Source of the DNA: Delphinus delphis
Taxonomy: Eukaryota > Chordata > Mammalia > Artiodactyla > Delphinidae
Direction: 5' to 3'
Assembly: GCF_949987515.2 (NCBI RefSeq)
Contig: NW_027192658.1
Coordinates: forward strand, 2,356,001-2,420,000
DNA: 64,000 nt
Numbering within the stretch: position 1 is the stretch's first letter; every line of letters starts with the position of its first letter. The notes under the pieces were generated by a model. That model was not told the origin of the DNA. It was given only the letters and a program-made list of their open reading frames with translations, and did not search any database. A program made the position numbers and the translations under genes. Below, one piece after another: positions 1,262-64,000 of the stretch.

Positions 1262-1293
1262 CCAAGCAAGCTTGCAAAGGAAATCTGCACTAC

Positions 1294-10560: not shown

Positions 10561-10669
10561 CCAAGAGGACTTGAAAGTGGGGCAGAATTGCAGGAAACCG
10601 ATTTCAGGAGGTAGACTGGAATTGCATTGAAAGCATAGGAAAAGAGGCAGAACGTCCACAATGATGCAC
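9090..10669 (+). repeat. Satellite unit 6 (1,580 bp)
   Basis: Perfect palindrome. It has AAAAAAGGGTAAAATCC near 9,234, where its neighbours have AAAAAAGTGTAAAATCC, and a private T in GCATAAATGC near 9,985. Confidence 0.92.
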
Positions 10670-35934: not shown

Positions 35935-37512
35935 TTGGCCAAGAAGGGCGTATGCGTTTTTTCCTGAATATATTCAGGAAAAAACGCATACGCCCTTTTT
36001 GGCCAACCAAGCAAGCTTGCAAAGGAAATCTGCACTACAATGAAGTCTCACTTCTCCCCGGTCAAAAGGGCCATCTGAAAAAAGTGTAAAATCCAGAAAG
36101 GCAGGACAGGCCATGGAGAACTGGGAGCCTTGTTATGCTGATGGGCGGGATGTAAATTACCAACAGACACTCAGGAAAAGTGTATGGTGTTTCCTGAAAC
36201 ATCTAAAAAACAAAGCAACAGAGCCTAGGGCACTTCCACTTATGGTCCTATAGCTTAGGGAAATTAAAATCAAAAAGACACAGCCACCCCAAAGTTTGGG
36301 ATGCCTCTGTTTACAAGAACCTCGTTTACAGTACAAGTTCAACATCGCAGAAATTGAAAAATGGATAAAGAAGTTGTGGTATTTACTTACAAAGCAATAT
36401 CACTCAGCAATGAAATCTGTGTCATCAGGCCCTTAGCAGCACAATGAGTGGATTCAGGTATGATGATTCTAACTGAAATAAGTCACACAGAAAAAGAAAC
36501 ATCATAAGATATCAGTAATACACGGAATGGAAACTTGGCTACACAGGAACTGAATTACAGAACAGAACAGGGTCTCAAATTTAGAAAACCAACTTATGCT
36601 TGCTTAAGGGGAAAGGTGAGTTGGGGTGCTGCATAAAACCAGAGATTGAAATGAGCACAGATAAAGTTCCTTAAGCCAAATATGGAATAGACAAGAGCTA
36701 CTCCTTGCTCAACGAAATGGACTCAACACCCCATATTAAACGCCTAAGAATGTACCTGACTAGTAAGTATCTTAAAACCTATGGATTGCTATGTCTCTGA
36801 AAGAGAATCAAGCATGTGTACAGGGGCATAAACGCAGCAGTGATAGGATTGGAGAGGTTCGGTGAGCAAATGAAGACCCTTTGAAGTCATATTGCATGGT
36901 ACCCATTCCACGGGTTTCAACTACCCAGGTTTTAGGTATTCTTCCTCAGCTAAAAGATGCATGTGGAACCCAAGTATGATCAACTATGTGAACGGGAGAC
37001 GTGTTCAAATATGTCTCAGTTTTCCTACCCTGGTACTCGGGTGCAACATTCCAGACGCTTTACTAACACTCTCCCCACTTGGAGAGTCAGCACCTTTAAC
37101 CTCCTGTTTGGCCCAGTTTGCAATTTCTGCGGAAGATGAACAGGAATAGCGAGAACCAATGAGAGACTAGCTGGAGGTGTCTGGACGGGCAAATTTAACT
37201 CTCATTTCCCACCAGGAAGAGGAAATAACCAAAGGCTCAGCGTGCCGGGCCGGAACAAGATTAGGGCCTGAAGCCATCCTGCGGTGTTGCGGCCAGGTCA
37301 CAAGAAAGCGAGTTGAAGAAAGGAGCTCAGGGGCACTGTAATTCACAAACCTGCAGAGTTATAAATGAGAGCTATCGTCCAAAAATAGACTGAAGTAAGG
37401 CTGCCAAGAGGACTTGAAAGCGGGGCAGAATTGCAGGAAACCGATTTCAGGAGGTAGACTGGAATTGCATTGAAAGCATAGGAAAAGAGGCAGAACGTCC
37501 ACAATGATGCAC
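35935..37512 (+). repeat. Satellite unit 23 (1,578 bp)
   Basis: Copy of unit 12. It has CACTTCCACT at 36,231-36,240 where unit 12 has CATTGCCACT. Two changes three bases apart suggest a small conversion from another unit. Confidence 0.92.
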
Positions 37513-39092
37513 TTGGCCAAAAAGGGCGTATGCGTTTTTTCCTGAATATATTCAGGAAAAAACGCATACGCCCTTTTTGGCCAACCAAGCAAGCTTGCAA
37601 AGGAAATCTGCACTACAATGAAGTCTCACTTCCCCCCGGTCAAAAGGGCCATCTGAAAAAAGTGTAAAATCCAGAAAGGCAGGACAGGCCATGGAGAACT
37701 GGGAGCCTTGTTATGCTGATGGGCGGGATGTAAATTGCCAACAACCACTCTGGAGAAGTGTATGGTGTTTCCTGAAACATCTAAAAAACAAAGCAACAGA
37801 ACCTAGGGCACTTCCACTTATGGTCCTATAGCTTAGGGAAATTAAAATCAAAAAGCCACAGCCACCCCAAAGTTTGGAACGGCTCTCTTTACAAGAACCT
37901 CGTTTACAGTACAAGTTCAACATCGCAGAAAGTGAAAAATGGATAAAGAACTTGTGGTACTTACGTACAATGCAGTATCACTCAGCAATGAAATCTATGT
38001 CATCAGGCCCGTAGCAGCATAATGAGTGGATTCAGGTACGATGATTCTAACTGAAATAAGTCACACAGAAAAAGAAACATCATAAGATATCACTAATACA
38101 CGGAATGTAAACTTGGCTACACAGGAACTGAATTACAGAACAGAACAGGGTCTCAAATTTAGAAAACCAACTTATGCTTGCTTAAGGGGAAAGGTGAGTT
38201 GGGGTGCTGCATAAAACCAGAGATTGAAATGAGCACAGATAAAGTTCCTTAAGCCAGATATGGAATAGACAAGAGCTACTCCTTGCTCAACGAAATGGAC
38301 TCAACACCCCATATTAAACGCCTAAGAATGTACCTGACTAGTAAGTATCTTAAAACCTATGGATTGCTATGTCTCCGAAGGAGAATCAAGCATGTGTACA
38401 GGGGCATAAACGCAGCAGTGATAGGATTGGAGAGGTTCGGTGAGCAAATGAAGACCCTTTGAAGTCATATTGCATGGTACCCATTACACGGGTTTCAACT
38501 ACCCAGGTTTTAGGTATTCTTCCTTCAGCTAAAACATGCATGTGGAACCTAGAGTATGATCAACCATGTGATCGGGAGACGTGTTCAAATATGTCTCAGT
38601 TTTCCTCCCCTGGTACTCGGGTGCAACATTCCAGACTCTTTACTAACACTCTCCCCACTTGGAGAGTGAGCGCCTTTAACCTCCTGTTTGGCACAGTTTG
38701 CAATTTCTGCGGAAGATGAACAGGAATGGCGAGAACCAATGAGAGGCTAGCTGGAGGTGTCTGGACGGGCAAATTTAACTCTCATTTCCCACCAGGAAGA
38801 GGAAATAACCAAAGGATCAGCGTGCCGTAGTGGAACCAGATTAGGGCCTGAAGCCATCCTGCGGTGTTGCGGCCAGCTCAAAAGAAAGCGAGTTGAAGAA
38901 AGGAGCTCAGGGGCACTGTAATTCACAAACCTGCAGAGTTATAAATGACAGCTATCGTCCAAAAATAGACTGAAGTAAGGCTGCCAAGAGGACTTGAAAG
39001 CGGAGCAGAATTGCAGGAAACCGATTTCAGGAGGTAGACTGGAATTGCATTGAAAGCATAGGAAAAGAGGCAGAATGTCCACAATGATGCAC
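37513..39092 (+). repeat. Satellite unit 24 (1,580 bp)
   Basis: Copy of unit 13 with no difference seen. Perfect palindrome. Confidence 0.92.
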
Positions 39093-40672
39093 TTGGCCAA
39101 AAAGGGCGTATGCGTTTTTTCCTGAATATATTCAGGAAAAAAACGCATACGCCCTTTTTGGCCAACCAAGCAAGCTTGCAAAGGAAATCTGCACTACAAT
39201 GAAGTCTCACTTCCCCCCGGTCAAAAGGGCCATCTGAAAAAAGTGTAAAATCCAGAAAGGCAGGACAGGCCATGGAGAACTGGGAGCCTTGTTATGCTGA
39301 TGGGCGGGATGTAAATTGCCAACAACCACTCGGGAGAAGTGTATGGTGTTTCCTGAAACATCTAAAAAACAAAGGAACAGAGCCTAGGGCACTGCCACTT
39401 ATGGTCCTATAGCTTAGGGAAATTAAAATCAAAAAGACACAGCCACCCCAAAGTTTGGAACGGCTCTGTTTACAAGAACCTCGTTTACAGTACAAGTTCA
39501 ACATCGCAGAAAGTGAAAAATGGATAAAGAAGTTGTGGTATTTACTTACAAAGCAATATCACTCAGCAATGAAATCTGTGTCATCAGGCCCTTAGCAGCA
39601 CAATGAGTGGATTCAGGTATGATGATTCTAACTGAAATAAGTCACACAGAAAAAGAAACATCATAAGATATCAGTAATACACGGAATGGAAACTTGACTA
39701 CACAGGAACTGAATTACAGAACAGAACAGGGTCTCAAATTTAGAAAACCAACTTATGCTTGCTTAAGGGGAAAGGTGAGTTGGGGTGCTGCATAAAACCA
39801 GAGATTGAAATGAGCACAGATAAAGTTCCTTAAGCCAAATATGGAATAGACAAGAGCTACTCCTTGCTCAACGAAATGGACTCAACAACCCATATTAAAT
39901 GCCTAAGAATGTACCTGACTAGTAAATATCTTAAAACCTATGGATTGCTATGTCTCCGAAAGAGAATCAAGCATGTGTACAGGGGCATAAACGCAGCAGT
40001 GATAGGATTGGAGAGGTTCGGTGAGCAAATGAAGACCCTTTGAAGTCATATTGCATGGTACCCATTCCACGGGTTTCAAATACACAGGTTTAAGGTGTTC
40101 TTCCTTCAGCTAAAAGATGCATGTGGAACCCAAGTATGATCAACTATGTGAACGGGAGACGTGTTCAAATATGTCTCAGTTTTCCTACCCTGGTACTCAG
40201 GTGCAACATTCCAGATGCTTTACTAACAGTCTCCCCACTTGGAGAGTCAGCACCTTTAACCTCCTGTTTGGCCCAGTTTGCAATTTCTGCGGAAGATGAA
40301 CAGGAATAGCGAGAACCAATGAGAGACTAGCTGGAGGTGTCTCGACGGGCAAATTTAACTCTCATTTCCCACCAGGAAGAGGAATTAACCAAAGGCTCAG
40401 CGTGCCGTACCGGAACCAGATTAGGGCCTGAAGCCATCCTGCGGTGTTGCGGCCAGGTCACAAGAAAGCGAGTTGAAGAAAGGAGCTCAGGGGCACTGTA
40501 ATTCAAAAACCTGCAGAGTTATAAATGACAGCTATCGTCCAAAAATATACTGAAGTAAGGCTGCCAAGAGGACTTGAAAGCGGGGCAGAATTGCAGGAAA
40601 CCGATTTCAGGAGGTAGACTGGAATTGCATTGAAAGCACATGAAGAGAGTCAGAAACTCGACAATGATGCAC
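39093..40672 (+). repeat. Satellite unit 25 (1,580 bp)
   Basis: Copy of unit 14, including the 73-base palindrome. Confidence 0.92.
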
Positions 40673-42251
40673 TTGGCCAAAAAGGGCGTATGTGTTTTTT
40701 CCTGAATATATTCAGGAAAAAACGCATACGCACTTTTTGGCCAACCAAGCAAGCTTGCAAAGGAAATCTGCACTACAATGAAGTCTCACTTCCACCCGGT
40801 CAAAAGGACCATCTGAAAAAAGTGTAAAATCCAGAAAGGCACGACAGGCCATGGAGAACTGGGAGCCTTCTTATGCTGATGGGCGGGATGTAAATTGCCA
40901 ACAGCCACTCTGGAGAACTGTATGGTGTTTCCTGAAACATCTAAAAAACAAAGCAACAGACCCTAGGGCACTTCCACTTATGGTCCTATAGCTTAGGGAA
41001 ATTAAAATCAAAAAGACACAGCCACCCCAATGTTTGGGACGGCTCTGTTTACAAGAACCTCGTTTACGGTACAAGTTCAATATCGCAGAAAGTGAAAAAT
41101 GGATAAAGAACCTGTGGTACTTACGTACAATGCAATATCACACAGCAATGAAATCTATGTCATAAGGCCAGTAGCATCACAATGAGTGGATTCAGGTACG
41201 ATGATTCTAACTGAAATAAGTCACACAGAAAAAGAAACATCATAAGATATCACTAATACACGGAATGTAAACTTGGCTACACAGGAACTGCATTCCAAAA
41301 CAGAACAGGGTCTCAAATTTAGAAAACCAACTTATGCTTGCTTAAGGGGAAAGGTGAGTTGGGGTGCTGCATAAAACCAGAGATTGAAATGAGCACAGAT
41401 AAAGTTCCTTAAGCCAAATATGGAATAGACAAGAGCTACTCCTTGCTCAACGAAATGGACTCAAAACCCCATATTAAACCTCTAAGAATGTACCTGACTA
41501 GTAAGTATCTTAAAACCTATGGATTGCTATGTCTCCAAAAGAGAATCAAGCATGTGTACAGGGGCATAAACGCAGCAGTGATAGGATTGGAGAGGTTCGG
41601 TGAGCAAATGAAGACCCTTTGAAGTCATATTGCATGGTACCCATTCCACGGGTCTCAACTCTCCAGGTTTAAGGTATTCTTCTTCAGCTAAAACATGCAT
41701 GTGGAACCCAGAGTATGATCAACCATGTGATCGGGAGACGTGTTCAAATATGTCTCAGTTTTCCTCCCCTGGTACTCGGGTGCAACATTCCAGACGCTTT
41801 ACTAACACTCTCCCGACTTGGAGAGTCAGTCCCTTTAACCTCCTGTTTGGCCCAGTTTGCAATTTCTGCGGAAGGTGAACAGGAATAGCGAGAACCAATG
41901 AGAGGTTAGCTGGAGGTGTCTGGACGGGCAAATTTAACTCTCATTTCCCACCAGGAAGAGGAATTAACCAAAGGCTCAGCGTGCCGTGCCGGAACCAGAT
42001 TAGGGCCTGAAGCCATCCTGCGGTGTTGCGGCCAGCTCACAAGGAAGCGAGTTGAAGAAAGGAGCTCAGGGGCACTGTAATTCACAAACCTGCAGAGTTA
42101 TAAATGACAGCTATCGTCCAAAAATAGACTGAAGTAAGGCTGCCAAGAGGACTTGAAAGCGGGGCAGAATTGCAGGAAACCGATTTCAGGAGGTAGACTG
42201 GAATTGCATTGAAAGCATAAGAAAAGAGGCAGAACGTCCACAATGATGCAC
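40673..42251 (+). repeat. Satellite unit 26 (1,579 bp), archaic-variant class
   Basis: Copy of unit 15. The C at 40,918 is private to this copy, since units 15 and 34 both have G. Confidence 0.9.
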
Positions 42252-43831
42252 TTGGCCAAAAAGGGTGTATGCGTTTTTTCCTGAATATATTCAAGAAAAA
42301 ACGCATACGCCCTTTTTGGCCAACCAAGCAAGCTTGCAAAGGAAATCTGCACTACAATGAAGTCTCACTTCCCCCCGGTCAAAAGGGCCATCTGAAAAAA
42401 GTGTAAAATCCAGAAAGGCAGGACAGGCCATGGAGAACTGGGAGCCTTGTTATGCTGATGGGCGGGATGTAAATTGCCAACAGACACTCGGGAGAAGTGT
42501 ATGGTGTTTCCTGAAACATCTAAAAAACAAAGCAACAGAGCCTAGGGCACTGCCACTTATGGTCCTATAGCTTAGGGAAATTAAAATAAAAAAGACACAG
42601 CCACCCCAAAGTTTGGAACGGCTCTGTTTACAAGAACCTCGTTTACAGTACAAGTTCAACATCGCAGAAAGTGAAAAATGGATAAAGAAGTTGTGGTATT
42701 TACTTACAAAGCAATATCACTCAGCAATGAAATCTGTGTCATCAGGCCCTTAGCAGCACAATGAGTGGATTCAGGTATGATGATTCTAACTGAAATAAGT
42801 CACACAGAAAAAGAAACATCATAAGATATCAGTAATACACAGAATGTATACTTGGCTACACAGGAACTGAATTACAGAACAGAACAGGGTCTCAAATTTA
42901 GAAAACCAACTTATGCTTGCTTAAGGGGAAAGGTGAGTTGGGGTGCTGCATAAAACCAGAGATTGAAATGAGCACAGATAAAGTTCCTTAAGCCAAATAT
43001 GGAATAGACAAGAGCTACTCCTTGCTCAACGTAATGGACTCAACACCCCATATTAAACGCCTAAGAATGTACCTGACTTGTAAGTATCTTAAAACCTATG
43101 GATTGCTATGTCTCCGAAAGAGAATCAAGCATGTGTACAGGGGCATAAACACAGCAGTGATAGGATTGGAGAGGTTCGGTGAGCAAATGAAGACCCTTTG
43201 AAGTCATATTGCATGGTACCCATTCCACGGGTTTCAACTACCCAGGTTTAAGGTATTCTTCCTTCAGCTAAAACATGCATGTGGAACCTAGCGTATGATC
43301 AACCATGTGATCGGGAGACGTGTTCAAATATGTCTCAGTTTTCGTACCCTCGTACTCTGGTGCAACATTCCAGACGCTTTACTAACACTCTCCCGACTTG
43401 GAGAGTCAGTCCCTTTAACCTCCTGTTTGGCCCAGTTTGCAATTTCTGCGGAAGATGAACAGGAATAGCGAGAACCAATGAGAGACTAGCTGGAGGTGTC
43501 TGGACGGGCAAATTTAACTCTCATTTCCCACCAGGAAGAGGAATTAACCAAAGGCTCAGCGTGCCGTGCCGGAACCAGATTAGGGCCTGAAGCCATCCTG
43601 CGGTGTTGCGGCCAGGTCACAAGAAAGCGAGTTGAAGAAAGGAGCTCAGGGGCACTGTAATTCACAAACCTGCAGAGTTATAAATGACAGCTATCGTCCA
43701 AAAATAGACTGAAGTAAGGCTGCCAAGAGGACTTGAAAGCGGGGCAGAATTGCAGGAAACCGATTTCAGGAGCTAGACTGCAATTGCATTGAAAGCATAG
43801 GAAAAGAGGCAGAACGTCCACAATGATGCAC
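42252..43831 (+). repeat. Satellite unit 27 (1,580 bp)
   Basis: Copy of unit 16 with only two palindrome mismatches. The A at 42,588 is private; units 16 and 35 have C. Confidence 0.92.
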
Positions 43832-45411
43832 TTGGCCAAAAAGTGCGTATGCGTTTTTTCCTGAATATATTCAGGAAAAAACGCATACGCCCTTTTTGGC
43901 CAACCAAGCAAGCTTGCAAAGGAAATCTGCACTACAATGAAGTCTCACTTCCCCCCGGTCAAAAGGGCCATCTGAAAAAAGTGTAAAGTCCAGAAAGGCA
44001 GGACAGGCCATGGAGAACTGGGAGCCTTGTTATGCTGATGGGCGGGATGTAAATTGCCAACAACCACTCGGGAGAAATGTATGGTGTTTCCGGAAACATG
44101 TAAAAAACAAAGCAACAGAACCTAGGGCACTTCCACTTATGGTCCTATAGCTTAGGGAAATTAAAATCAAAAAGACACAGCCACCCCAAAATTTGGAACG
44201 GCTCTGTTTACAAGAACCTCGTTTACAGTACAAGTTCAACATCGCAGAAAGTGAAAAATGGAGAAAGAAGTTGTGGTATTTACTTACAAAGCAATATCAC
44301 TCAGCAATGAAATCTGTGTCATCAGGCCCGTAGCAGCACAATGAGTGGATTCAGGTATGATGATTCTAACTGAAATAAGTCACACAGAAAAAGAAACATC
44401 ATAAGATATCAGTAATACACGGAATGTAAACTTGGCTACACAGGAACTGAATTGCAGAACAGAACAGGGTCTCAAATTTAGAAAACCAACTTATGCTTGC
44501 TTAAGGGGAAAGGTGAGTTGGGGTGCTGCATAAAACCAGAGATTGAAATGAGCACAGATAAAGTTCCTTAAGCCAAATATGGAATAGACAAGAGCTACTC
44601 CTTGCTCAACAAAATGGACTCAACACCCCATATTAAACGCCTAAGAATGTACCTGACTAGTAAGTATCTTAAAACCTATGGATTGCTATGTCTCCAAAAG
44701 AGAATCAAGCATGTGTACAGGGGCATAAACGCAGCAGTGATAGGATTGGAGAGGTTCGGTGAGCAAATGAAGACCCTTTGAAGTCATATTGCATGGTACC
44801 CATTCCACGGGTCTCAACTCTCCAGGTTTAAGGTATTCTTCCTTCAGCTAAAACATGCATGTGGAACCCAGAGTATGATCAACCATGTGATCGGGAGACG
44901 TGTTCAAATATGTCTCAGTTTTCGTACCCTGGTACTCGGGTGCAACATTCCAGACACTTTACTAACACTCTCCCCACTTGGAGAGTCAGTCCCTTTAACC
45001 TCCTGTTTGGCCCAGTTTGCAATTTCTGTGGAAGATGAACAGGAATAGCGAGAACCAATGAGACACTAGCTGGTGGTGTCTGGATGGGCAAATTTAACTC
45101 TCATTTCCCACCAGGAAGAGGAATTAACCAAAGGCTCAGCGTGCCGTGCCGGAACCAGATTAGGGCCTGAAGCCATCCTGCGGTGTTGCGGCCAGCTCAA
45201 AAGAAAGCGAGTTAAAGAAAGGAGTTCAGGGGCACTGTAATTCACAAACCTGCAGAGTTATAAATGACAGCTATCGTCCAAAAATAGACTGAAGTAAGGC
45301 TGCCAAGAGGACTTGAAAGCGGGGCAGAATTGCAGGAAACCGATTTCAGGAGGTAGACTGGAATTGCATTGAAAGCATAGGAAAAGAGGCAGAACGTCCA
45401 CAATGATGCAC
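43832..45411 (+). repeat. Satellite unit 28 (1,580 bp)
   Basis: Copy of unit 17, no difference seen. Confidence 0.92.
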
Positions 45412-46989
45412 TTGGCCAAAAAGGGCATATGCGTTTTTTCCTGAATATATTCAGGAAAAAACGCATACGCCCTTTTTGGCCAAACAAGCAAGCTTGCAAA
45501 GGAAATCTGCACTACAATGAAGTCTCACTTCCCCCCGGTCAAAAGGGCCATCTGAAAAAAGTGTAAAATCCATAAAGGCAACAGGCCATTGAGAACTGGG
45601 AGCCTTGTTATGCTGATGGGCGGGATGTAAATTGCCAACAACCACTCGGGAGAAGTGTATGGTGTTTCCTGAAACATCTAAAAAACAAAGCAACAGAACC
45701 TAGGGCACTTCCACTTATGGTCCTATAGCTTAGGGAAATTAAAATCGAAAAGACACAGCCACCCCAAAGTTTGGAACGGCTCTGTTTACAAGAACCTCGT
45801 TTACAGTACAAGTTCAACATCGCAGAAAGTGAAAAATGGATAAAGAACTTGTGGTACTTACGTACAATGCAGTATCACTCAGCAATGAAATCTATGTCAT
45901 CAGGCCCGTAGCAGCATAATGAGTGGATTCAGGTACGATGATTCTAACTGAAATAAGTCACACAGAAAAAGAAACATCATAAGATATCACTAATACATGG
46001 AATGTAAACTTGGCTACACAGGAACTGAATTACAGAACAGAACAGGGACTCAAATTTAGAAAACCAACTTATGCTTGCTTAAGGGGAAAGGTGAGTTGGG
46101 GTGCTGCATAAAACCAGAGATTGAAATGAGCACAGATAAAGTTCCTTAAGCCAAATATGGAATAGACAAGAGCTACTCCTTGCTCAACGAAATGGACTCA
46201 ACACCCCATATTAAATGCCTAAGAATGTACCTGACTAGTAAGTATCTTAAAACCTATGGATTGCTATGCCTCCAAAAGAGAATAAAGCATGTGTACAGGG
46301 GCATAAACGCAGCAGTGATAGGATTGGAGAGGTTCGGTGAGCAAATGAAGACCCTTTGAAGACATATTGCATGGTACCCATTACACGGGTCTCAACTCTC
46401 CAGGTTTAAGGTATTCTTCCTTCAGCTAAAACATGCATGTGGAACCCAGAGTATGATCAACTATGTGAATGGGAGACGTGTTCAAATATATCTCAGTTTT
46501 CCTCCCCTGGTACTCGGGTGCAACATTCCAGACGCTTTACTAACACTCTCCCCACTTGGAGAGTCAGCACCTTTAACCTCCTGTTTGGCCCAGTTTGCAA
46601 TTTCTGCGGAAGATGAACAGGAATAGCGAGAACCAATGAGAGACTAGCTGGAGGTGTCTGGACGGGCAAATTTAACTCTCATTTCCCACCAGGAAGAGGA
46701 ATTAACCAAAGGCTCAGCGTGCCATACCAGAACCAGATTAGGGCCTGAAGCCATCCTGCGGTGTTGCGGCCAGCTCACAAGAAAGCGAGTTGAAGAAAGG
46801 AGCTCAGGGGCACTGTAATTCACAAACCTGCAGAGTTATAAATGACAGCTATCGTCCAAAAATACACTGAAGTAAGGCTGCCAAGAGGACTTGAAAGCGG
46901 GGCAGAATTGCAGGAAACCGATTTCAGGAGGTAGACTGGAATTGCATTGAAAGCATAGGAAAAGAGGCAGAACGTCCACAATGATGCAC
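45412..46989 (+). repeat. Satellite unit 29 (1,578 bp)
   Basis: Copy of unit 18, no difference seen. Confidence 0.92.
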
Positions 46990-48568
46990 TTGGCCAAAAA
47001 GGGCGTATGCGTTTTTTCCTGAATATATTCAGGAAAAAGCGCATACGCCCTTTTTGGCCAACCAAGCAAGCTTGCAAAGGAAATCTGCACTACAATGAAG
47101 TCTCACTTCCCCCCGGTCAAAAGGGCCATCTGAAAAAAGTGTAAAATCCAGAAAGGCAGGACAGGCCATGGAGAACTGGGAGCCTTGTTATGCTGATGGG
47201 CGGGATGTAAATTGCCAACAACCACTGGGGAGAAGTGGATGGTGTTTCCTGAAACATCTAAAAAACAAAGCAACAGAGCCTAGGGCACTTCCACATATAG
47301 TCTTATTGCTTAGGGAAATTAAAATCAAAAAGACACAGCCACCCCAAAGTTTGGGACGCCTCTGTTTACAAGAACCTCGTTTACTGTACAAGTTCAATAT
47401 CACAGAAATTGAAAAATGGATAAAGAACTTGTGGTACTTACGTACAATGCAATATCACTCAGCAAAAAATCTATGTCATCAGGCCCATAGCAGCATAATG
47501 AGTGGATTCAGGTACGATGATTCTAACTGAAATAAGTCACACAGAAAAAGAAACATCAAAAGATATCACTAATACACGGAATGTAAACTTGGCTACACAG
47601 GAACTGAATTAAAGAACAGAACAGGGTCTCAAATTTAGAAAACCAACTTATGCTTGCTTAAGGGTAAAGGTGAGTTGGGGTGCTGCATAAAACCAGAGAT
47701 TGAAATGAGCACAGATAAAGTTCCTTAAGCCAAATATGGAATAGACAAGAGCTACTCCTTGCTCAACGAAATGGACTCAACACCGCATATTAAACGCCTA
47801 AGAATGTACCTGACTAGTAAGTATCTTAAAACCTATGGATTGCTATGTCTCCGAAAGAGAATCAAGCATGTGTACAGGGGCATAAATGCAGCAGTGATAG
47901 GATTGGAGAGGTTCGGTGAGCAAATGAAGACCCTTTGAAGTCATATTGCATGGTACCCATTCCACGGGTTTCAACTACCCAGGTTTTAGGTATTCTTCCT
48001 TCAGCTAAAACATGCATGTGGAACCCAGAGTATGATCAACCATGTGATCGGGAGACGTGTTCAAATATGTCTCAGTTTTCCTACCCTGGTACTCGGGTGC
48101 AACATTCCAGACGCTTTACTAACACTCTCCCGACTTGGACAGTCAGTGCCTTTAACCTCCTGTTTGGCCCAGTTTGCAATTTCTGCGGAAGATGAACAGG
48201 AATAGGGAGAACCAATGAGAGACTAGCTGGAGGTGTCTGGACGGGCAAATTTAACTCTCATTTCCCACTAGGAAGAGGAATTAACCAAAGGCTCAGCGTG
48301 CCGTGGCGGAAACAGATTAGGGCCTGAAGCCATCCTGCGGTGTTGCGGCCAGCTCACAAGAAAGTGAGTTGAAGAAAGGAGCTCAGGGGCTCTGTAATTC
48401 ACAAACCTGCAGAGTTATAAATGACAGCTATCGTCCAAAAATATACTGAAGTAAGGCTGCCAAGAGGACTTGAAAGCGGGGCAGAATTGCAGGAAACCGA
48501 TTTCAGGAGGTAGACTGGAATTGCATTGAAAGCGTAGGAAAAGAGGCAGAACGTCCACAATGATGCAC
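46990..48568 (+). repeat. Satellite unit 30 (1,579 bp), right end of repeat copy B
   Basis: Matches unit 19 until 47,226, then departs (ACTGGGGAG near 47,224, CATATAGTCTTATTG near 47,293). From 47,168 to 47,530 it keeps an unbroken 120-codon + frame that reads through the L1 ORF2 remnant, the longest such frame in the arrays. I take it as a fossil, not a gene. Confidence 0.9.
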
Positions 48569-49360
48569 TTTGCCAAAAGGGCATATGCGTTTTTTCCTGA
48601 ATATATTCAGGAAAAAACGCATACGCCCTTTTTGGCCAATCAAGCAAGCTTGCAAAGGAAATCTGCACTACAATGAAGTCTCACTTCCCCCAGGTCAAAA
48701 GGGCCTTCAGAATAAAGTGTAAAATCCAGAAAGGCAGGACAGGCCATGGAGAACTGGGAGCCTTGTTATGCTGATGGGCGGGATGAAAATTGCCAACAGA
48801 CACTCAGGAGAAGTGTATGGTGTTTCCTGAAACATCTAAAAAACAAAGCAACAGAGCCTAGGGCACTTCCACTTATGGTCCTATAGCTTAGGGAAATTAA
48901 TATCAAAAAGACACAGCCACCCCAAAATTTGGGACGGCTCTTTTTACAGGAATCTCTTCTACGGCACAAGTTAAATATCCCAGAGAGCAAATAATGGATA
49001 AAGAAGTTGCGGTACTTCTGTACAACAGAATACCACTCAGCAATGAAATCTATGTCACCAGGCCCGTACCAGCATAATGAGTGGATTGAGGCACGATGAT
49101 TCTAAGTGAAATAAGTCACACAGAAAAAGAAACATCATAAGGTATCACTAATACACGGAATGTGAACTTGGCTACACATGAACTGAATTACAAAACAGAA
49201 CAGGGTCTCAAGTTTAGAAAACCAACTTATGCCTGCTTAAGGGGGAAGGTGAGTTGGGGTGCTGCATAAAAGCAGAGTTTGCAATTAGCACAGATACCGT
49301 TCCATAAGCCAAATATGTAATAGACAAGAGCTACCCCTTGCTCAACGAAATGGATTCAAC
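48569..49360 (+). repeat. Satellite unit 31 (truncated, array edge)
   Basis: The most divergent unit of array 1. The palindrome is 71 bases with several mismatches (TTTGCCAAAAGG). After 48,950 there are many substitutions, several toward the L1 original (ATGGATAAAGAAG, GTACAAC). The unit is cut at 49,360, inside the L1 3' UTR-derived part. Confidence 0.88.
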
Positions 49361-50050
49361 AATGAGGTATCACCTCACACCTGGTAGAATAGGCATCATT
49401 GAAAATCTACAAACAAAAAATGCTGGAAAGGGTGTGGAGAAAAGGAACCCTCTTCCACTATTGTTGGGAATATAAATTGATACAGTCATTATGGAGAACA
49501 ATATGGAATTTCTTAAGAAACTAACAATAGAATTACCATAGGATACAGCAATCCCAGTACTGGACATATACCCAGACAAAACCATAAATCAAAAAGAGTC
49601 ATTCACCGCAATGTTCATTGCATCACTATTTACAATATCGAGGTAATGGAAGCAACCTAAATGCCCACAGACAGACGAATGCATAAAGCTGTGGTACATA
49701 TATAAAATGGAATATTACTCAGCCATGAAAAGGAATGAAATTGGGTCATTTGTAGAGACGTCGATGGATCTAGAGACTGTCATACAGAGTGAAGTAAGTC
49801 AGAAAGAGAAAAACAAATCTTGTATATTAATGCATATATGTGGAACCTAGAAAAACTGTACAGATTAACCATTTTGCAAGGCATAAACAGAGCAACAGAT
49901 GTAGACAACAAACGTATGGACAACAAGGGGGGAAAGCTGTTGGGGGGGTGGTGGTGGGAGGAGTTGAGAGACTGGGATTGGCATGTATACATTTATATGT
50001 ATAAAATAGATAACCAATAAGAACCTGCTGTATAAAAATATAAAATAAAA
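49361..50050 (+). mobile_element. 5'-truncated LINE-1 3' end
   Basis: Starts abruptly in the ORF2 C-terminal region (CAATGAGGTATCACC) and runs through TGGGAATATAAATTG, GAATATTACTCAGCC and the 3' UTR (GGGATTGGCATGTATAC, TAAGAACCTGCTGTAT) into an A-rich tail. The 3' UTR resembles cetartiodactyl L1 families as I remember them. The ORF2 part (to about 49,850) has several in-frame stops, so it is a pseudogene. No target-site duplication was found against the satellite edge, so I cannot say whether it inserted here or merely borders the array. Confidence 0.9.
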
Positions 50051-54524: not shown

Positions 54525-55103
54525 ATGGGACTCTTCCTACTGCTAAAACATGTCTGTCACACCCAGAGGATGGTATACCGTCTGATCGGGAAGAGTTTGG
54601 AAAAGGCATCTCATCTCCTCATCTCCTGGTGCTCGGGTTCACCCCTCCAGCGTCTTTACTAACAGTCTCCCCACTTGGAGATGTCAGCACTGTCAACATC
54701 CTGTTGCATACAGTTTTGAATTTGTCCAGAGGATGAAGCGGAAGGATGAGGAACAATGAGAGACAAGTCCTAGGTGTTCAGACAGGCACATGTCACTCTA
54801 ATTTCCAATCAGGAAGACGAATTGACCAAAGGCTAGGGTTGCCCATGGAAACAGTATAGGGCTTGAGGAAATCCCGCTGCTTTGTGGCCAGTTCCCATAA
54901 ACACGAGTTGAACAATGGAACTCAGGGGCAGTAAAATTCACAAAACTGCAGAGTTGAAAATATCCATCACTGAAAAATGTCTTGAGGAAAGTCAGAGAAA
55001 AGGACTTGTAAGCAAGGGAGAATGGCAGGAAAGGGATTTGAGGAGGTAGAAAGGACTCGCCATTAAGCACAAGAAAAGGAGCTGAACATTGCCAACATTG
55101 CAG
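54525..55103 (+). repeat. Divergent satellite unit, partial (left edge)
   Basis: Matches the unassigned part of the unit through landmarks CTTCCTACTGCTAAAACATG, CTCCCCACTTGGAGA, ACAATGAGAGAC and CTGCAGAGTT. By eye about one base in four or five differs from the array 1 consensus. The sequence just before the next palindrome, AAGAAAAGGAGCTGAACAT, is close to the L1 ORF2 stretch that normally lies there. Confidence 0.8.
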
Positions 55104-56843
55104 TTGGCCAAAAAGGGTGTATGCGTTCTTTTCTGTATATATTCAAGAAAAGGGCATACACTTTTTTAGCCAACCAAACAGGTGGGCACTGGAAGTCAAT
55201 ACTACAAAACATATCACTTCGCATCAGTCAGAAGAGCCATCCTCATAAAGCGTAAACAACAGAAATGCAGGACAGGGCAACGAGAAGAGGGAGCCCTGTG
55301 AGACTTATAGTGGAAATGTATATTGCCAACGGCCATTCTGGAGAAGTGTATTGTGTTTACTAAAGCATCTAAAAAATGAGCTACAGAGCATAGGGCACTT
55401 GCACTCATGGGCGTATATCTTGGGAAAAACAAAAATCGAGAGGACACAGGCACCCCAATGTTTACCCCCTCTCTGTTTAAAAGATCCTCGACTAGGATAT
55501 AACTTAAATGTCTCTGGAGGGGAAAAATGGATAGAGATGTGGTACTTAGGTAGAGTGGAATATTATTCAGCCTGGAAATCAATGAAATATGGCCAGTTGT
55601 AACAACTCCGGAGGAGTTACGTATGATCATTCTAAGTGACAGAATTCAAAAAGAAAAAGACACATATCATAAGATATCACTTAAAGGTGGAATCCAAAAT
55701 GGCTACACATGAAATAAATTACAAAACAAAAACATAGTCAAATATGTAGAAAACACGCATAAGGCTGCTAAACGGGAAAGGTGGGGAGGGGTGAGGCATC
55801 ATCCAGGAGGTTGAAATTAGCAAAGATACCATTCCAAATACCAAACTGATAATCAACAAGGCCTACACGGTAGCTAAAAGAACTGCACTCAGCACACTCA
55901 AGTCACCGGAAAAGAATATATACGACTGGTAAGAATCTGAAAAAGAATTTATTGATGCCTCTCTGTACGCGAATCAAGTGGATGTACAGCAGCAAGAAAC
56001 AGAGCTTTGAAAATCAGCTGTAACCAATATAGTAATAAATTGAAAAAAATAAACGACAGAGAGACAGAGAAAACCTCTTACAACTTTTCCTCAGGGACGG
56101 TGATGCAACATGGATTGAACACATCTAGACCCACAGCAGGATGAGACATAAGGCTGGAAACTGTTTGCGCTAAGAGAAATGTGAGGTTGGGTGAGGAAAT
56201 GCACACCCTTTAAAGTAATACTACCTGGTACCCATTCAATGGGTCCCAAATCTGCAGGTTCAAGGGATCTTCCTACAGCTAAAACATGCATGGAAAACCC
56301 AGAGGACTGTACACCATGTGATCGGGAGATGTGTCTAAAATGCACCTCATTTATCCTCTCCTGGTGCTCCTGTTCACCATTCCAGCCACGCTACTTAGAA
56401 TCTCCCCACTTGGAGAATCAGCACATTTAAACTTCTGTTTCACACATTTTGCAAATTGTGAGGAGGATGAACGGGAAGAGGGGGAACCAATGAGAGAAGA
56501 GTTGTAGGGGTTTGGACGGGCACATATCACTCTAATTTCCCATTAAGAATAAGAATTAAAGAAAGGCTCAGCCTGCCTCGCCGGAGCCAAAATAGGGCCT
56601 GAAGCAATCCTGCGGGTTTGAGGCCAGCTCACAAAAGAGCAACTTAAAAAATGGAGCTCAGGGTCACTGCAATTCACAAACCTGCAGAGTTATAAATGAA
56701 AACTAACGTCCAAAAATATGTTGAGGTAAGGCAAAGAAGAGGATCTGAATGCAAGACAGAATTGCAAGAAACAGATTTCAAGAGATAGATTGGACTCGTC
56801 TTTAACGCACATGAAAAGCGGCAGAATTTCGACAATGATGCAG
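55104..56843 (+). repeat. Divergent long satellite unit (1,740 bp)
   Basis: Palindrome to palindrome 1,740 bases. The palindrome (55,104-55,173) is eroded, and the base before it is G and pairs with the C after it. After the L1-derived half, the L1 3' terminus survives (GTACAGCAGCAAGAAAC near 55,984, A-rich tail 56,030-56,053), followed by a block, about 56,054-56,190, that ordinary units lack. This block recurs in the next unit, so it belonged to the ancestral repeat. Confidence 0.85.
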
Positions 56844-58504
56844 TTGGCCCAAAAGGGCGTATGCGTTTTTTCCTGATTATATCCAGGAAAAAACGCATAC
56901 GCACTTTATGGGCAACGAAGCAAGCAAGCAATGCAAATGTGCACAACAAAGAAGTCTCACTTCCCACCGGTCAAAAGGGTCATCCTAAAAAATTGTAAAA
57001 ACCAGAAATGCAGGACAGGCCATGGAGAACAGGGAGCCTTTATACGCTGATGGGCAGTGTGTGAACTGCCGAGAGCCACTCTGGAGAAGTGTATGGTGGT
57101 TCCTAAATCATCTAAAAAACAGAGCTACAGAGCATAGGACACTTCCAATCATGGGAGTATATCTAGGGAAGTCTAAAAATCAACAAGACACAAGCACACC
57201 ACAGTTTAGGGCTACTCTGTTTACAAGAACCTCAACTTCAGTACACCTTAAATATCCCAGGAAAGAGAACAATGGATAAAGAAGATGTGGTACTTATGTA
57301 CAATGGAATATCTCTTCACCATGAAATCAATGTAATAAGGCTAGTAGAAGGATAAAGAGTGGATTTAGGTCCGATAATACTACTTGAAATAAGTCAAACA
57401 GAAAAAGAAACATATCATAAGATATCACTTATAGAGGGAGGGTAAATATGGCTGCACAAGAAATGAATTACAGAACAGAACAGTGTCTCACATTTAGAAA
57501 ACACACTTATGTCAGCTTAAGGGGAAAGGAGAGGTGGGGTGATGCATAAAACCAGAGTTTGAAATTAGCACAGATACCGTTCAATAAACCAAATAGGTAT
57601 TAGACAAGATCTACACCTTGCTCAATGAACTGGCCTCAACACACCCTATACACCGCAGAGAAATATATCTGAGGAATAAGAATCTTAAAACCCATGTATT
57701 GATATATCTCCATAAGGGAATCAAGTGTGTGCAGAGCGGCACAAACACAGCAGTGAAAAGGAGCTAAACCCCATTATAGAAATAAATTTTAAAAACAAAA
57801 TGCTGAAACAATGAAAGAGAGAAAAATTCTTACAAAATTCGCTCAGGGGCTGTGATGCAACCTGGATTGACCACATATAAACCCACAGCCGGATAAGACA
57901 TAAGGCTGGACACTTGGGGCTGACAGGATTGGTGAGCTTTGGTGAGCAACTGCCGAAAGTTTAATGCAATACTTCATGCTACTCAGTCCAAGGGTCCCAA
58001 CACTCCAGGTTGAAGGGAATCTTCCTACAGCTAAACCATGCTTGGGAAACCCAGCGACTGGTATACCATATGATCGGGAAAGGTTTCTAAAACGCACCTC
58101 ATTTTTCCTCTCCTGGGGCTCCGGATCGACATTCCAGCCGCTTTACTAACAACATCCCCACATGGAGTCAATGCCTTTAAGTTCTGGTATCGCACAGTCT
58201 GCAGTTAGTGCAGAGGATGAATGGGAATAGGGGGAACCAGTGAGAAACTAGCTGTAGCGGTTTCAATGGGCACATGTCACTCTAATATCACATCAGTAAG
58301 AAGAATTAACCAAAGGCACAGCAAGGTGCCCCAGAAGAAAAATAGGGCTTCAAGGAATCCTGTGGTTACGGGGCAATACCACAAAAATAAGAGCTAAAAA
58401 ATGGAGCTAAGGGCCACTGCAATTCAAAAACCTGCAGAGTTATAAAGGCCAACTATTTTTAAAAATATATTGAGGTAAGGCTATGAAGAGGCATTGAAAG
58501 AAAG
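56844..58504 (+). repeat. Divergent long satellite unit (1,749-bp spacing), joined to array 2
   Basis: The palindrome at 56,844-56,915 is recognisable with several mismatches and a pairing G/C flank. The L1 ORF2 remnant reads EPLWRSVWWFL within a frame at 57,022-57,279. The ~168-base block missing from short units lies at 57,757-57,924 (GATGCAACCTGGATTGA, GATAAGACATAAGGCTGG). At about 58,504 the sequence changes within a few bases to the homogeneous type. Confidence 0.85.
57757..57924. repeat. Block lost from short satellite units
   Basis: Flanked by CAGTGA and AGGATTGG, which are nearly adjacent in every short unit. The block starts with the last L1 3' UTR bases and an A-rich tail (AAATAAATTTTAAAAAC), then continues with non-L1 sequence that matches 56,060-56,170 in the neighbouring long unit. 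Its loss accounts for nearly all of the long-to-short length difference. Confidence 0.8.
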
Positions 58505-58592
58505 GCAGAATTGCAGGAAACCGATTTCAGGAGGTAGACTGGAATTGCATTGAAAGCATATGAAGAGAGTCAGAAACTCGACAATGATGCAC

Positions 58593-60172
58593 TTGGCCAA
58601 AAAGGGCGTATGTGTTTTTTCCTGAATATATTCAGGAAAAAACGCATACGCACTTTTTGGCCAACCAAGCAAGCTTGCAAAGGAAATCTGCACTACAATG
58701 AAGTCTCACTTCCACCCGGTCAAAAGGGCCATCTGAAAAAAGTGTAAAATCCAGAAAGGCACGACAGGCCATGGAGAACTGGGAGCCTTCTTATGCTGAT
58801 GGGCGGGATGTAAATTGCCAACAGCCACTCTGGAGAAGTGTATGGTGTTTCCTGAAACATCTAAAAAATAAAGCAACAGACCCTAGGGCACTTCCACTTA
58901 TGGTCCTATAGCTTAGGGAAATTAAAATCAAAAAGACACAGCCACCCCAAAGTTTGGGACGGCTCTGTTTACAAGAACCTCGTTTACGGTACAAGTTCAA
59001 TATCGCAGAAAGTGAAAAATGGATAAAGAACCTGTGGTACTTACGTACAATGCAATATCACACAGCAATGAAATCAATGTCATAAGGCCAGTAGCATCAC
59101 AATGAGTGGATTCAGGTACGATGATTCTAACTGAAATAAGTCACACAGAAAAAGAAACATCATAAGATATCACTAATACACGGAATGTAAACTTGGCTAC
59201 ACAGGAACTGCATTCCAAAACAGAACAGGGTCTCAAATTTAGAAAACCAACTTATGCTTGCTTAAGGGGAAAGGTGAGTTGGGGTGCTGCATAAAACCAG
59301 AGATTGAAATGAGCACAGATAAAGTTCCTTAAGCCAAATATGGAATAGACAAGAGCTACTCCTTGCTCAACGAAATGGACTCAAAACCCCATATTAAACG
59401 TCTAAGAATGTACCTGACTAGTAAGTATCTTAAAACCTATGGATTGCTATGTCTCCAAAAGAGAATCAAGCATGTGTACAGGGGCATAAACGCAGCAGTG
59501 ATAGGATTGGAGAGGTTCGGTGAGCAAATGAAGACCCTTTGAAGTCATATTGCATGGTACCCATTACACGGGTCTCAACTCTCCAGGTTTAAGGTATTCT
59601 TCCTTCAGCTAAAACATGCATGTGGAACCCAGAGTATGATCAACCATGTGATCGGGAGACGTGTTCAAATATGTCTCAGTTTTCCTCCCCTGGTACTCGG
59701 GTGCAACATTCCAGACGCTTTACTAACACTCTCCCGACTTGGAGAGTCAGTCCCTTTAACCTCCTGTTTGGCCCAGTTTGCAATTTCTGCGGAAGGTGAA
59801 CAGGAATAGCGAGAACCAATGAGAGAATAGCTGGAGGTGTCTGGACGGGCAAATTTAACTCTCATTTCCCACCAGGAAGAGGAATTAACCAAAGGCTCAG
59901 CGTGCCGTGCCGGAACCAGATTAGGGCCTGAAGCCATCCTGCGGTGTTGCGGCCAGCTCACAAGGAAGCGAGTTGAAGAAAGGAGCTCAGGGGCACTGTA
60001 ATTCACAAACCTGCAGAGTTATAAATGACAGCTATCGTCCAAAAATAGACTGAAGTAAGGCTGCCAAGAGGACTTGAAAGCGGGGCAGAATTGCAGGAAA
60101 CCGATTTCAGGAGGTAGACTGGAATTGCATTGAAAGCATAAGAAAAGAGGCAGAACGTCCACAATGATGCAC
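58593..60172 (+). repeat. Satellite unit 34 (1,580 bp), archaic-variant class
   Basis: Relative of units 15 and 26 with the same two palindrome mismatches. The first unit of array 2; its own lead-in (58,505-58,592) is already homogeneous in type. Confidence 0.9.
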
Positions 60173-61752
60173 TTGGCCAAAAAGGGTGTATGCGTTTTTT
60201 CCTGAATATATTCAAGAAAAAACGCATACGCCCTTTTTGGCCAACCAAGCAAGCTTGCAAAGGAAATCTGCACTACAATGAAGTCTCACTTCCCCCCGGT
60301 CAAAAGGGCCATCTGAAAAAAGTGTAAAATCCAGAAAGGCAGGACAGGCCATGGAGAACTGGGAGCCTTGTTATGCTGATGGGCGGGATGTAAATTGCCA
60401 ACAGACACTCGGGAAAAGTGTATGGTGTTTCCTGAAACATCTAAAAAACAAAGCAACAGAGCCTAGGGCACTGCCACTTATGGTCCTATAGCTTAGGGAA
60501 ATTAAAATCAAAAAGACACAGCCACCCCAAAGTTTGGAACGGCTCTGTTTACAAGAACCTCGTTTACAGTACAAGTTCAACATCGCAGAAAGTGAAAAAT
60601 GGATAAAGAAGTTGTGGTATTTACTTACAAAGCAATATCACTCAGCAATGAAATCTGTGTCATCAGGCCCTTAGCAGCACAATGAGTGGATTCAGGTATG
60701 ATGATTCTAACTGAAATAAGTCACACAGAAAAAGAAACATCATAAGATATCAGTAATACACAGAATGTATACTTGGCTACACAGGAACTGAATTACAGAA
60801 CAGAACAGGGTCTCAAATTTAGAAAAACAACTTATGCTTGCTTAAGGGGAAAGGTGAGTTGGGGTGCTGCATAAAACCAGAGATTGAAATGAGCACAGAT
60901 AAAGTTCCTTAAGCCAAATATGGAATAGACAAGAGCTACTCCTTGCTCAACAAAATGGACTCAACACCCCATATTAAACGCCTAAGAATGTACCTGACTA
61001 GTAAGTATCTTAAAACCTAGGGATTGCTATGTCTCCGAAAGAGAATCAAGCATGTGTACAGGGGCATAAACACAGCAGTGATAGGATTGGAGAGGTTCGG
61101 TGAGCAAATGAAGACCCTTTGAAGTCATATTGCATGGTACCCATTCCACGGGTTTCAACTACCCAGGTTTAAGGTATTCTTCCTTCAGCTAAAACATGCA
61201 TGTGGAACCTAGCGTATGATCAACCATGTGATCGGGAGACGTGTTCAAATATGTCTCAGTTTTCGTACCCTCGTACTCTGGTGCAACATTCCAGACGCTT
61301 TACTAACACTCTCCCGACTTGGAGAGTCAGTCCCTTTAACCTCCTGTTTGGCCCAGTTTGCAATTTCTGCGGAAGATGAACAGGAATAGCGAGAACCAAT
61401 GAGAGAGTAGCTGGAGGTGTCTGGACGGGCAAATTTAACTCTCATTTCCCACCAGGAAGAGGAATTAACCAAAGGCTCAGCGTGCCGTGCCGGAACCAGA
61501 TTAGGGCCTGAAGCCATCCTGCGGTGTTGCGGCCAGCTCACAAGAAAGCGAGTTGAAGAAAGGAGCTCAGGGGCACTGTAATTCACAAACCTGCAAAGTT
61601 ATAAATGACAGCTATCGTCCAAAAATAGACTGAAGTAAGGCTGCCAAGAGGACTTGAAAGCGGGGCAGAATTGCAGGAAACCGATTTCAGGAGCTAGACT
61701 GGAATTGCATTGAAAGCATAGGAAAAGAGGCAGAACGTCCACAATGATGCAC
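60173..61752 (+). repeat. Satellite unit 35 (1,580 bp)
   Basis: Relative of units 16 and 27. Used here as an outgroup: it sides with copy B at three sites and with copy A at one. Confidence 0.9.
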
Positions 61753-63331
61753 TTGGCCAAAAAGTGCGTATGCGTTTTTTCCTGAATATATTCAGGAAAA
61801 AACGCATACGCCCTTTTTGGCCAACCAAGCAAGCTTGCAAAGGAAATCTGCACTACAATGAAGTCTCACTTCCCCCCGGTCAAAAGGGCCATCTGAAAAA
61901 AGTGTAAAGTCCAGAAAGGCAGGACAGGCCATGGAGAACTGGGAGCCTTGTTATGCTGATGGGCGGGATGTAAATTGCCAACAACCACTCGGGAGAAGTG
62001 TATGGTGTTTCCGGAAACATGTAAAAAACAAAGCAACAGAACCTAGGGCACTTCCACTTATGGTCCTATAGCTTAGGGAAATTAAAATCAAAAAGACACA
62101 GCCACCCCAAAATTTGGAACGGCTCTGTTTACAAGAACCTCGTTTACAGTACAAGTTCAACATCGCAGAAAGTGAAAAATGGAGAAAGAAGTTGTGGTAT
62201 TTACTTACAAAGCAATATCACTCAGCAATGAAATCTGTGTCATCAGGCCCGTAGCAGCACAATGAGTGGATTCAGGTATGATGATTCTAACTGAAATAAG
62301 TCACACAGAAAAAGAAACATCATAAGATATCAGTAATACACGGAATGTAAACTTGGCTACACAGGAACTGAATTGCAGAACAGAACAGGGTCTCAAATTT
62401 GGAAAACCAACTTATGCTTGCTTAAGGGGAAAGGTGAGTTGGGGTGCTGCATAAAACCAGAGATTGAAATGAGCACAGATAAAGTTCCTTAAGCCAAATA
62501 TGGAATAGACAAGAGCTACTCCTTGCTCAACAAAATGGACTCAACACCCCATATTAAACGCCTAAGAATGTACCTGACTAGTAAGTATCTTAAAACCTAT
62601 GGATTGCTATGTCTCCAAAAGAGAATCAAGCATGTGTACAGGGGCATAAACGCAGCAGTGATAGGATTGGAGAGGTTCGGTGAGCAAATGAAGACCCTTT
62701 GAAGTCATATTGCATAGTACCCATTCCACGGGTCTCAACTCTCCAGGTTTAAGGTATTCTTCCTTCAGCTAAAACATGCATGTGGAACCCAGAGTATGAT
62801 CAACCATGTGATCGGGAGACGTGTTCAAATATGTCTCAGTTTTCGTACCCTGGTACTCGGGTGCAACATTCCAGACACTTTACTAACACTCTCCCCACTT
62901 GGAGAGTCAGTCCCTTTAACCTCCTGTTTGGCCCAGTTTGCAATTTCTGTGGAAGATGAACAGGAATAACGAGAACCAATGAGAGACTAGCTGGTGGTGT
63001 CTGGATGGGCAAATTTAACTCTCATTTCCCACCAGGAAGAGGAATTAACCAAAGGCTCAGCGTGCCGTGCCAGAACCAGATTAGAGCCTGAAGACATCCT
63101 GCGGTGTTGCGGCCAGCTCAAAAGAAAGCGAGTTGAAGAAAGGAGCTCGGGGCACTGTAATTCACAAACCTGCAGAGTTATAAATGACAGCTATCGTCCA
63201 AAAATATACTGAAGTAAGGCTGCCAAGAGGACTTGAAAGCGGGGCAGAATTGCAGGAAACCGATTTCAGGAGGTAGACTGGAATTGCATTGAAAGCATAG
63301 GAAAAGAGGCAGAACGTCCACAATGATGCAC
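61753..63331 (+). repeat. Satellite unit 36 (1,579 bp)
   Basis: Relative of units 17 and 28 (AAGTGCG palindrome arm, CCGGAAACATG). A one-base deletion gives GAGCTCGGGGC near 63,143. After about 63,060 it departs from the higher-order repeat. Confidence 0.9.
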
Positions 63332-64000
63332 TTGGCCAAAAAGGGCGTATGCGTTTTTTCCTGAATATATTCAGGAAAAAACGCATACGCCCTTTTTGGC
63401 CAACCAAGCAAGCTTGCAAAGGAAATCTGCACTACAATGAAGTCTCACTTCCCCCCGGTCAAAAGGTCCATCTGAAAAAAGTGTAAAATCCAGAAAGGCA
63501 GGACAGGCCATGGAGAACTGGGAGCCTTGTTATGCTGATGGGCGGGATGTAAATTGCCAACAGACACTCAGGAGAAGTGTATGGTGTTTCCTGAAACATC
63601 TAAAAACAAAGCAACAGACCCTAGGGCACTTGCACTTATGGTCCTATAGCTTAGGAAAATTAAAATCAAAAAGACACAGCCACCCCAAAGTTTGGGACGC
63701 CTCCGTTTCCAAGAACCTCGTTTACCGTACAAGTTCAATATCACAGAAAGTGAAAAATGGATAAAGAACTTGTGGTACTTACGTACAACGCAGTATCACT
63801 CAGCAATGAAATCTATGTCATCAGGCCCATAGCAGCATAATGAGTGGATTCAGGTACGATGATTCTAACTGAAATAATTCACACAGAAAAAGAAACATCA
63901 TAAGATATCACTAATACACGGAATGTAAACTTGGCTACACAGGAACTGCATTCCAAAACAGAACAGGGTCTCAAATTTAGAAAACCAACTTATGCTTGGT
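63332..64000 (+). repeat. Satellite unit 37 (partial, window edge)
   Basis: Perfect palindrome at 63,332-63,403. The following sequence is not that of units 18 or 29 (no CATAAAGGCAAC); it has CAGACACTCAGG like units 12 and 31, so the register of the 11-unit repeat is lost here. Confidence 0.9.

Follow-up and report, generated by a model that had tools for sequence, protein, structure and literature searches.

A likely mariner-derived palindrome within the LINE-1 part of a dolphin satellite unit

The common cetacean satellite derives from LINE-1 (L1), according to the passages of PMC9659126 and PMC8909793 that concern it (citing Kapitonov, Holmquist & Jurka 1998), and the passage in PMC9659126 names the L1 3' end as the portion contained in the unit. 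Mariner-type transposons have also been described inside a satellite: that of Messor ants holds the mariner Mboumar and the MITE-like element IRE-130 (MITE, miniature inverted-repeat transposable element), as given in the relevant passages of PMC2581405 and PMC9659126. A further mariner, Mariner1_BT, is recorded in the excerpted parts of PMC3517439 from ruminants, toothed whales (Odontoceti) and leaf-nosed bats; in Tursiops, it numbers >700 copies at a mean divergence of 7.6%. Here we analyse a stretch of 64,000 nucleotides (nt) of the Delphinus delphis contig NW_027192658.1 (positions 2,356,001 to 2,420,000; the window), which is mostly satellite and whose units carry a palindrome of ~72 nt. 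Most likely, this palindrome is what remains of a mariner-derived MITE that was inserted in the 3' part of an old L1 and was later amplified as satellite. This is a sound, modest refinement of a known satellite, the L1 origin of which was already known.

The satellite units and their palindrome

The satellite in the window is made of 1,580-bp units and two divergent long units, A (1,740 bp; centre 55,139) and B (1,749 bp; centre 56,879). BLAST of one unit against the window gives a short-unit spacing of 1,578-1,581 and places A and B between blocks of the array, beside a non-satellite stretch. The 1,580-bp consensus (D) was built from 33 full short units, which are 95.9-99.1% identical to it. 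Identity between the unit kinds is 73% (A-D), 78% (B-D) and 74% (A-B), corresponding to a difference of 22-27%. By length and L1 content, the satellite fits the delphinid form of the common cetacean satellite: its tandem units measure ~1.58-1.75 kb, in line with published lengths, and resemble the L1 3' end as given by a presumed reference sequence. In the killer whale, the unit of this satellite is 1,579 bp long.

The palindrome occurs in all 37 units whose palindrome site falls inside the window. It is imperfect in A and B, and perfect or near-perfect in the 35 other units. In D, it is a perfect palindrome over 72 nt (36/36 pairs), symmetric to the centre with nothing between the arms; B differs from D at six positions, and A at more. 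The copy in unit A covers 70 nt (55104..55173) and that in unit B 72 nt (56844..56915, or ~56,840-56,926 with its presumed outer ends), each without an assigned strand and each likely a mariner-derived MITE. The symmetry exceeds chance: DNA folding of four copies gives z-scores of -5.2 to -14.8, and 0 of 200 shuffles equal any of the four. The terminal inverted repeats that are typical of a mariner MITE are thus present, as perfect 36-nt arms in D and imperfect ones in A and B.

Other identities were considered and rejected. A microRNA or tRNA gene was rejected as there is no Rfam match at the gathering score and no tRNA. A CENP-B box satellite was rejected as well, since the motif TTCGNNNNANNCGGG, which we take to be the CENP-B box, has no match at ≤1 mismatch in the 64,000 bases.

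LINE-1 sequence on both sides of the palindrome

The flanks of the palindrome were compared with a presumed L1 reference of 639 nt. Without the palindrome, each of the sequences A, B and D aligns continuously to L1 over the join (3/3). In A, the 40-nt left flank scores best at 84-120 of this reference and the right flank resumes at 127; the corresponding positions are 87-119 and 122 for B, and 84-119 and 125 for D. Between the two flanks, 3-7 L1 bases are skipped. Relative to L1, the added sequence is 87-90 nt long. These positions, with left ends at L1 119-120 and right starts at 122-127, bear out the claim of a preliminary description of this DNA that the order of L1 is kept before and after the palindrome in the divergent units. 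The strings quoted there are also in place (GCACATGAAAAG at 56,807, CAATGCAAATG at 56,929 and GTTGGCCAAAAAG at 55,103); AGAAAAGGAGCTGAACAT is present too, but it starts at 55,072, one base earlier than had been given.

On the forward strand of unit A, the L1 ORF2 stretch left of the palindrome lies at 55065..55099 (L1 reference 84-120; frame KHKKRS*T), and the ORF2 tail and 3' untranslated region (UTR) right of it lie at 55190..56041, with approximate ends. In unit B, the left ORF2 stretch (CACATGAAAAG...) is at 56808..56839 on the same strand (frame HMKSGRISTMM). To its right, the ORF2 tail and then the 3' UTR extend as far as the L1 3' end (56927..57788, forward, approximate). Thus, the order of ORF2 tail and 3' UTR is kept from one flank of the palindrome to the other, on the left over ~38 nt only.

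Of 2000 shuffles of each 40-nt left flank, those that reach the observed score in the expected window of the reference number 0 for A, 11 for B and 9 for D; when any position in the reference is allowed, they number 1, 78 and 102. For 100-nt left flanks, 1000 shuffles each give 0 for A, 223 for B and 8 for D in the expected window and 3, 596 and 17 anywhere. On translation, five of five left flanks have their best match within residues 25-36 of the peptide from the ORF2 tail, all in the same frame; within this range, A matches 25-32 and B 26-34 with a gap, and an example of an in-frame match is KHMKRVRNSTMM against KHMKRCSTSLII. At the protein level, the score against KHMKRCSTSLII is reached by 6 (A), 48 (B), 5 (D) and, for two minority short units, 1 and 1 of 2000 shuffles. 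The translation corresponds to an ORF2 tail known in database proteins, with the human form in PDB chains, and a motif of the form KHMK.CSTSLIIREMQ is found in 46 of 119 database proteins among the matches listed.

Several results weigh against an L1 on the left side, or limit its extent. With 100-nt left flanks, A and D stay significant and B is at chance. Upstream of CACATG, the L1 signal is not significant, as 235-826 of 1000 shuffles do as well, and an L1 reaching far left of CACATG was therefore rejected; L1 left of the palindrome is demonstrable over ~38 nt only. Two variant tail peptides give scores that 2 to 248 of 2000 shuffles reach. Because the flanks are homologous copies, the left-flank tests are not independent of each other. 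The reference nucleotides left of the join are presumed ones, and this part was checked by protein. An L1 copy within the window (49,362-50,012) agrees with the presumed reference at 422 of 488 aligned positions, which is no check on the left part because this copy starts right of the junction.

The short left match would suit a different history, in which the L1 was 5'-truncated at or near the palindrome and landed beside an existing MITE, so that the match on the left is due to chance. Nothing significant is found further left, as such a truncation would have it. However, in 3/3 sequences the left flank scores best at the contiguous position in L1, and frame and residues fit in 5/5 flanks, with the caution that these are homologous, non-independent copies. 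We consider a truncated L1 very unlikely. As L1 keeps its order and frame on both sides, nesting within L1 is the simplest account of the palindrome. The nesting proposed in the preliminary description is upheld in order and frame, but the similarity on the left spans just ~38 nt and 3-7 L1 bases are unaccounted for.

Two further L1 pieces lie in the window. The copy at 49,362-50,012 is a 5'-truncated L1 3' end that is joined directly to a broken satellite unit, in which the satellite ends at unit position 842; this L1 starts ATG AGG TAT CAC, ~20 bases right of the palindrome site in L1. The other is an L1 3' UTR piece at 54,139-54,328, which is like the presumed L1 UTR at 147 of 182 aligned positions and shortly precedes the first diverged satellite sequence (54,522). 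It could be what is left of the founding locus, or an L1 of separate origin.

Arm sequences and junctions

Five arms of the palindrome (D left; B left and right; A left and right) were compared with bovine miR-2284/2285 rows of a table in PMC6203363, with MADE1 as printed by Rfam and with a presumed Mariner1_BT arm, and significance was taken from 1000 shuffles. The miR names used here are those of the rows in the part of PMC6203363 that holds the table, and they serve as labels because some of these rows hold letters of other names. The D and B arms resemble the published bovine miR-2284/2285 sequences in these rows. The score against the bta-miR-2284w row is reached by 3 (D left), 6 (B left) and 1 (B right) of the 1000 shuffles, that against the 2285l 3p row by 2, 15 and 2 (A arms, 17 and 14), and that against a further miR row by 5, 19 and 0. 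The presumed Mariner1_BT arm gives a score that 0-2 of 1000 shuffles reach in all five arms. We take the miR-2284/2285 hairpins to derive from Mariner1_BT, whose inverted-repeat end is presumably GGTTGGCCAAAAAG; a literature search for miR-2284 together with mariner found no paper. The 19-mer GGTTGGCCAAAAAGTTCGT has 38 matches in the window at ≤3 mismatches (chance mean 0.02), all of them inside palindromes, and these cover 35 of 35 short units; units A and B have no match.

The arm comparison also holds results that speak against a mariner source, or against Mariner1_BT in particular. The A arms are at chance with the bta-miR-2284w row (528 and 454 of 1000 shuffles) and with the 2284e row (723 and 692), and they reach 77 and 183 with the further miR row. 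The 2284e row is weaker for the other arms too, at 39 (D left), 62 (B left) and 6 (B right). For MADE1, the score is reached by 69-398 of 1000 shuffles in four of the five arms and by 21 in the A right arm. Both arms of the palindrome have the same changes relative to the Mariner1_BT arm, itself a presumed sequence. Because of these shared changes, the source may be another mariner family.

MADE1 is the human mariner MITE from which mir-548 derives. The corresponding Rfam family, RF01061, scores 36.4 bits (E 1.2e-4) where the gathering score is 90, and most of this score reflects the hairpin, because other hairpin families score alike. MADE1/mir-548 as the source of the palindrome was rejected on this Rfam result and on a sequence match no better than shuffles in 4/5 arms. 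Searches elsewhere gave little: pattern scans for the L1 or MITE DNA in viral contig and genome contig collections had no match, and the palindrome as a query had none among plasmids and two weak matches among phages (Listeria phages, 40% of the query, E 0.06), which we judge to be chance.

A TA target-site duplication, for which the preliminary description had proposed to look at the junction, is not readable at the joins. On the assumption that the element begins and ends as presumed for Mariner1_BT (TTGGG before TTGGCC), A, B and D all have the dinucleotide TG at the left join and CA at the right one. L1 presumably carries TA at the matching place (ATCATTAGAG). TG and CA are each one transition away from TA, which is a reading and not a proof, and decay of a duplication is possible given the 22-27% difference among units. 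This absence weighs against a mariner insertion and, because the duplication was sought and not found, we do not file the palindrome as a proven mariner MITE; it is a likely one. The mariner origin proposed earlier is supported by the likeness of the B and D arms to the miR-2284/2285 rows excerpted from PMC6203363 and, apparently, to the Mariner1_BT inverted repeat in its presumed form, and not by the target-site duplication.

A full-length Mariner1_BT could have inserted in place of a MITE and then lost its middle. The excerpts of PMC3517439 place Mariner1_BT in toothed whales, which would supply the element, but the arms in D pair through to the centre and leave no sequence between them. These arms are also longer than the 28-30 bp of mariners in the quoted passage of PMC6082228 and the 32 bp of Mboumar in that of PMC2581405. 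An internal deletion is quite unlikely, and we prefer the insertion of an already short MITE.

Symmetry, history and relatives of the satellite

The palindrome differs from the rest of the unit in the changes specific to D. In a MAFFT alignment of A, B and D, 1,509 windows of 72 nt were compared, and only those with a start at consensus positions 164-180 lack a D-specific change; the palindrome is the window starting at 164. D-specific changes occur at 142 of 1,094 sites elsewhere at which A and B agree and at 0 of 55 in the palindrome (P ~5e-4), a test that is post hoc and alignment-dependent, with an uncorrected P. One mirrored right-arm site, at which MAFFT places a gap in A, has the A-C state in A and B and the C-C state in D; aligned by hand, it adds one D-specific change (P ~0.004), the palindrome windows remain the lowest, and this single change renders the palindrome perfect. 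Immediately to the left of the core, there is another base specific to D (GCAC vs GCAG). Changes specific to B (5 vs 6.4 expected) or A (10 vs 10.0) are not rarer in the palindrome. Its identity is 66/72 between B and D and 60/72 between A and D, values reached by 19 and 15 of the 1,509 windows, and an ordinary 55/72 between A and B, reached by 446.

Among the 33 full 1,580-bp units, 10 of 72 columns are variable in the palindrome and 255 of 1508 outside it, with a mean minor frequency of 0.0097 vs 0.0189. Current purifying selection on the palindrome was rejected, as variable sites are not clearly depleted. The observed/expected ratio of CpG inside the palindrome is 1.28 in D, 1.20 in B and 0.40 in A, compared with 0.41 (D) and 0.35 (B) outside, and rests on four CpGs. 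At one mirrored G/T site, the left and right arms read GGG/GTG in A, B and three short units; in the 35 short units, the states are GGG/GGG in 27, GTG/GGG in 3 and GGG/GTG in 3, with 2 unscored. The GTG/GGG units have their palindrome centres at 26,497, 43,867 and 61,788, and the GGG/GTG short units at 23,338, 40,708 and 58,628; members of each trio recur at the 11-unit spacing or resemble each other most. The latter trio is also a distinct type of 1,580-bp unit, 3.2-4.1% from the consensus, with a left flank (CACATGAAGAG or CATATGAAGAG) that is closer to L1 than that of the majority units.

These observations hint at arm correction or past constraint in the short-unit lineage, not at present constraint. 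If the perfect symmetry, the few D-specific changes, the CpG content and the mirrored G/T states are taken as hints in this direction, the palindrome might not be passive: hairpins or cruciforms with mutually correcting arms could have helped to start or sustain amplification of the satellite, which we regard as rather unlikely. Another possibility is that the palindrome is no mobile element at all and arose within the satellite, in or beside L1, through fold-back copying of an arm or selection for a symmetric protein site. It would agree with the missing TA duplication, with the changes that both arms share relative to the presumed Mariner1_BT arm, and with a D palindrome that is perfect over 72 nt and has the fewest changes specific to the D lineage. 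Against it, the D and B arms match the miR-2284/2285 rows, in the table excerpt used, beyond most shuffles, and the L1 sequence keeps its order across a gain of 87-90 nt, as in an insertion. An origin within the satellite is rather unlikely, and a nested MITE remains our preferred explanation.

Under this explanation, a short, nearly fully palindromic mariner-derived MITE, perhaps moved by a Mariner1_BT-type transposase, would have entered the 3' part of an old L1 near ORF2 residue 1,100 (human numbering, chain 9k6g). A segment of ~1.75 kb, consisting of the L1 tail with the MITE and ~700 bp of other sequence, would then have been amplified in tandem and become the common cetacean satellite. 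In the 1,580-bp lineage, 160-170 bp would have been lost, the L1 3' end with them, and amplification of an 11-unit higher-order repeat would have been added on top. The insertion predates the split of A, B and D because the palindrome sits at one and the same place in L1 in all units seen, the most diverged ones included. Beyond this, we infer mariner identity, entry by transposition and insertion before the first tandem amplification; one insertion-bearing unit could also have swept an early array. Therefore, of the order given in the preliminary description (L1, then MITE, then amplification), the precedence of the insertion over the unit split stands on 37 of 37 units, but its precedence over the first amplification is an inference.

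The remaining features of the window concern the array itself. On the forward strand, 1,580-bp units with the same palindrome occupy 1..49361 (BLAST units from base 4), partly as the 11-unit higher-order repeat of 17,370 bp, and the array restarts at 58550..64000. Units differ by a median of 0.25% at the 11-unit lag and by 2.7-3.2% at lags of 1-10 and 12-15. The array is absent from the Tandem Repeats Finder output, the longest period of this tool being 500. At 57754..57921 (forward) lies a stretch of 160-170 nt that A and B share and the 1,580-bp units lack; it includes the L1 3' end. The portion of unit B after the L1 3' end, delimited by exclusion, is at 57789..58549 (forward); in each long unit, these ~700 bp have no assigned source in a search against Rfam only. 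The non-satellite stretch contains an old remnant of a retroviral-type reverse transcriptase at 51,725-51,925 (Pfam RVT_1, E 3e-7).

If the nested origin is true, a major whale satellite is a composite made in two steps, with a DNA-transposon miniature nested in a retrotransposon tail. The insertion would serve as a marker for the history of the satellite, since all units with the palindrome can have split only after it. The 72-nt perfect palindrome would also be a concrete candidate for what makes the unit amplify or stay homogeneous.

Compared with the common cetacean satellite, the units described here are alike in their length of 1,580 bp and in their L1 3' end content, whereas the passages of PMC9659126 and PMC8909793 that we cite mention L1 only and no embedded palindrome or MITE. 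Titles, abstract openings and passages retrieved from the literature contained no report of a mariner or MITE in this satellite, and queries for the palindrome, including the 12-base end of its arm, returned unrelated titles or nothing on this palindrome in such excerpts. MADE1/mir-548 is alike in being a palindromic mariner MITE, with an RF01061 score below gathering, and unlike in its arm sequence, which is at shuffle level in four of five arms. Mariner1_BT and its presumed short hairpin relatives at the miR-2284/2285 loci are alike in the presumed end, the layout and the host group. Unlike Mariner1_BT, the palindrome here has several subterminal changes in both arms, lacks a TA duplication and is only ~72-90 nt long. 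The satellite of Messor ants is alike in holding a mariner-type element inside the satellite. There, according to the passages available, several transposon copies are present, whereas in the dolphin the element is part of every unit seen.

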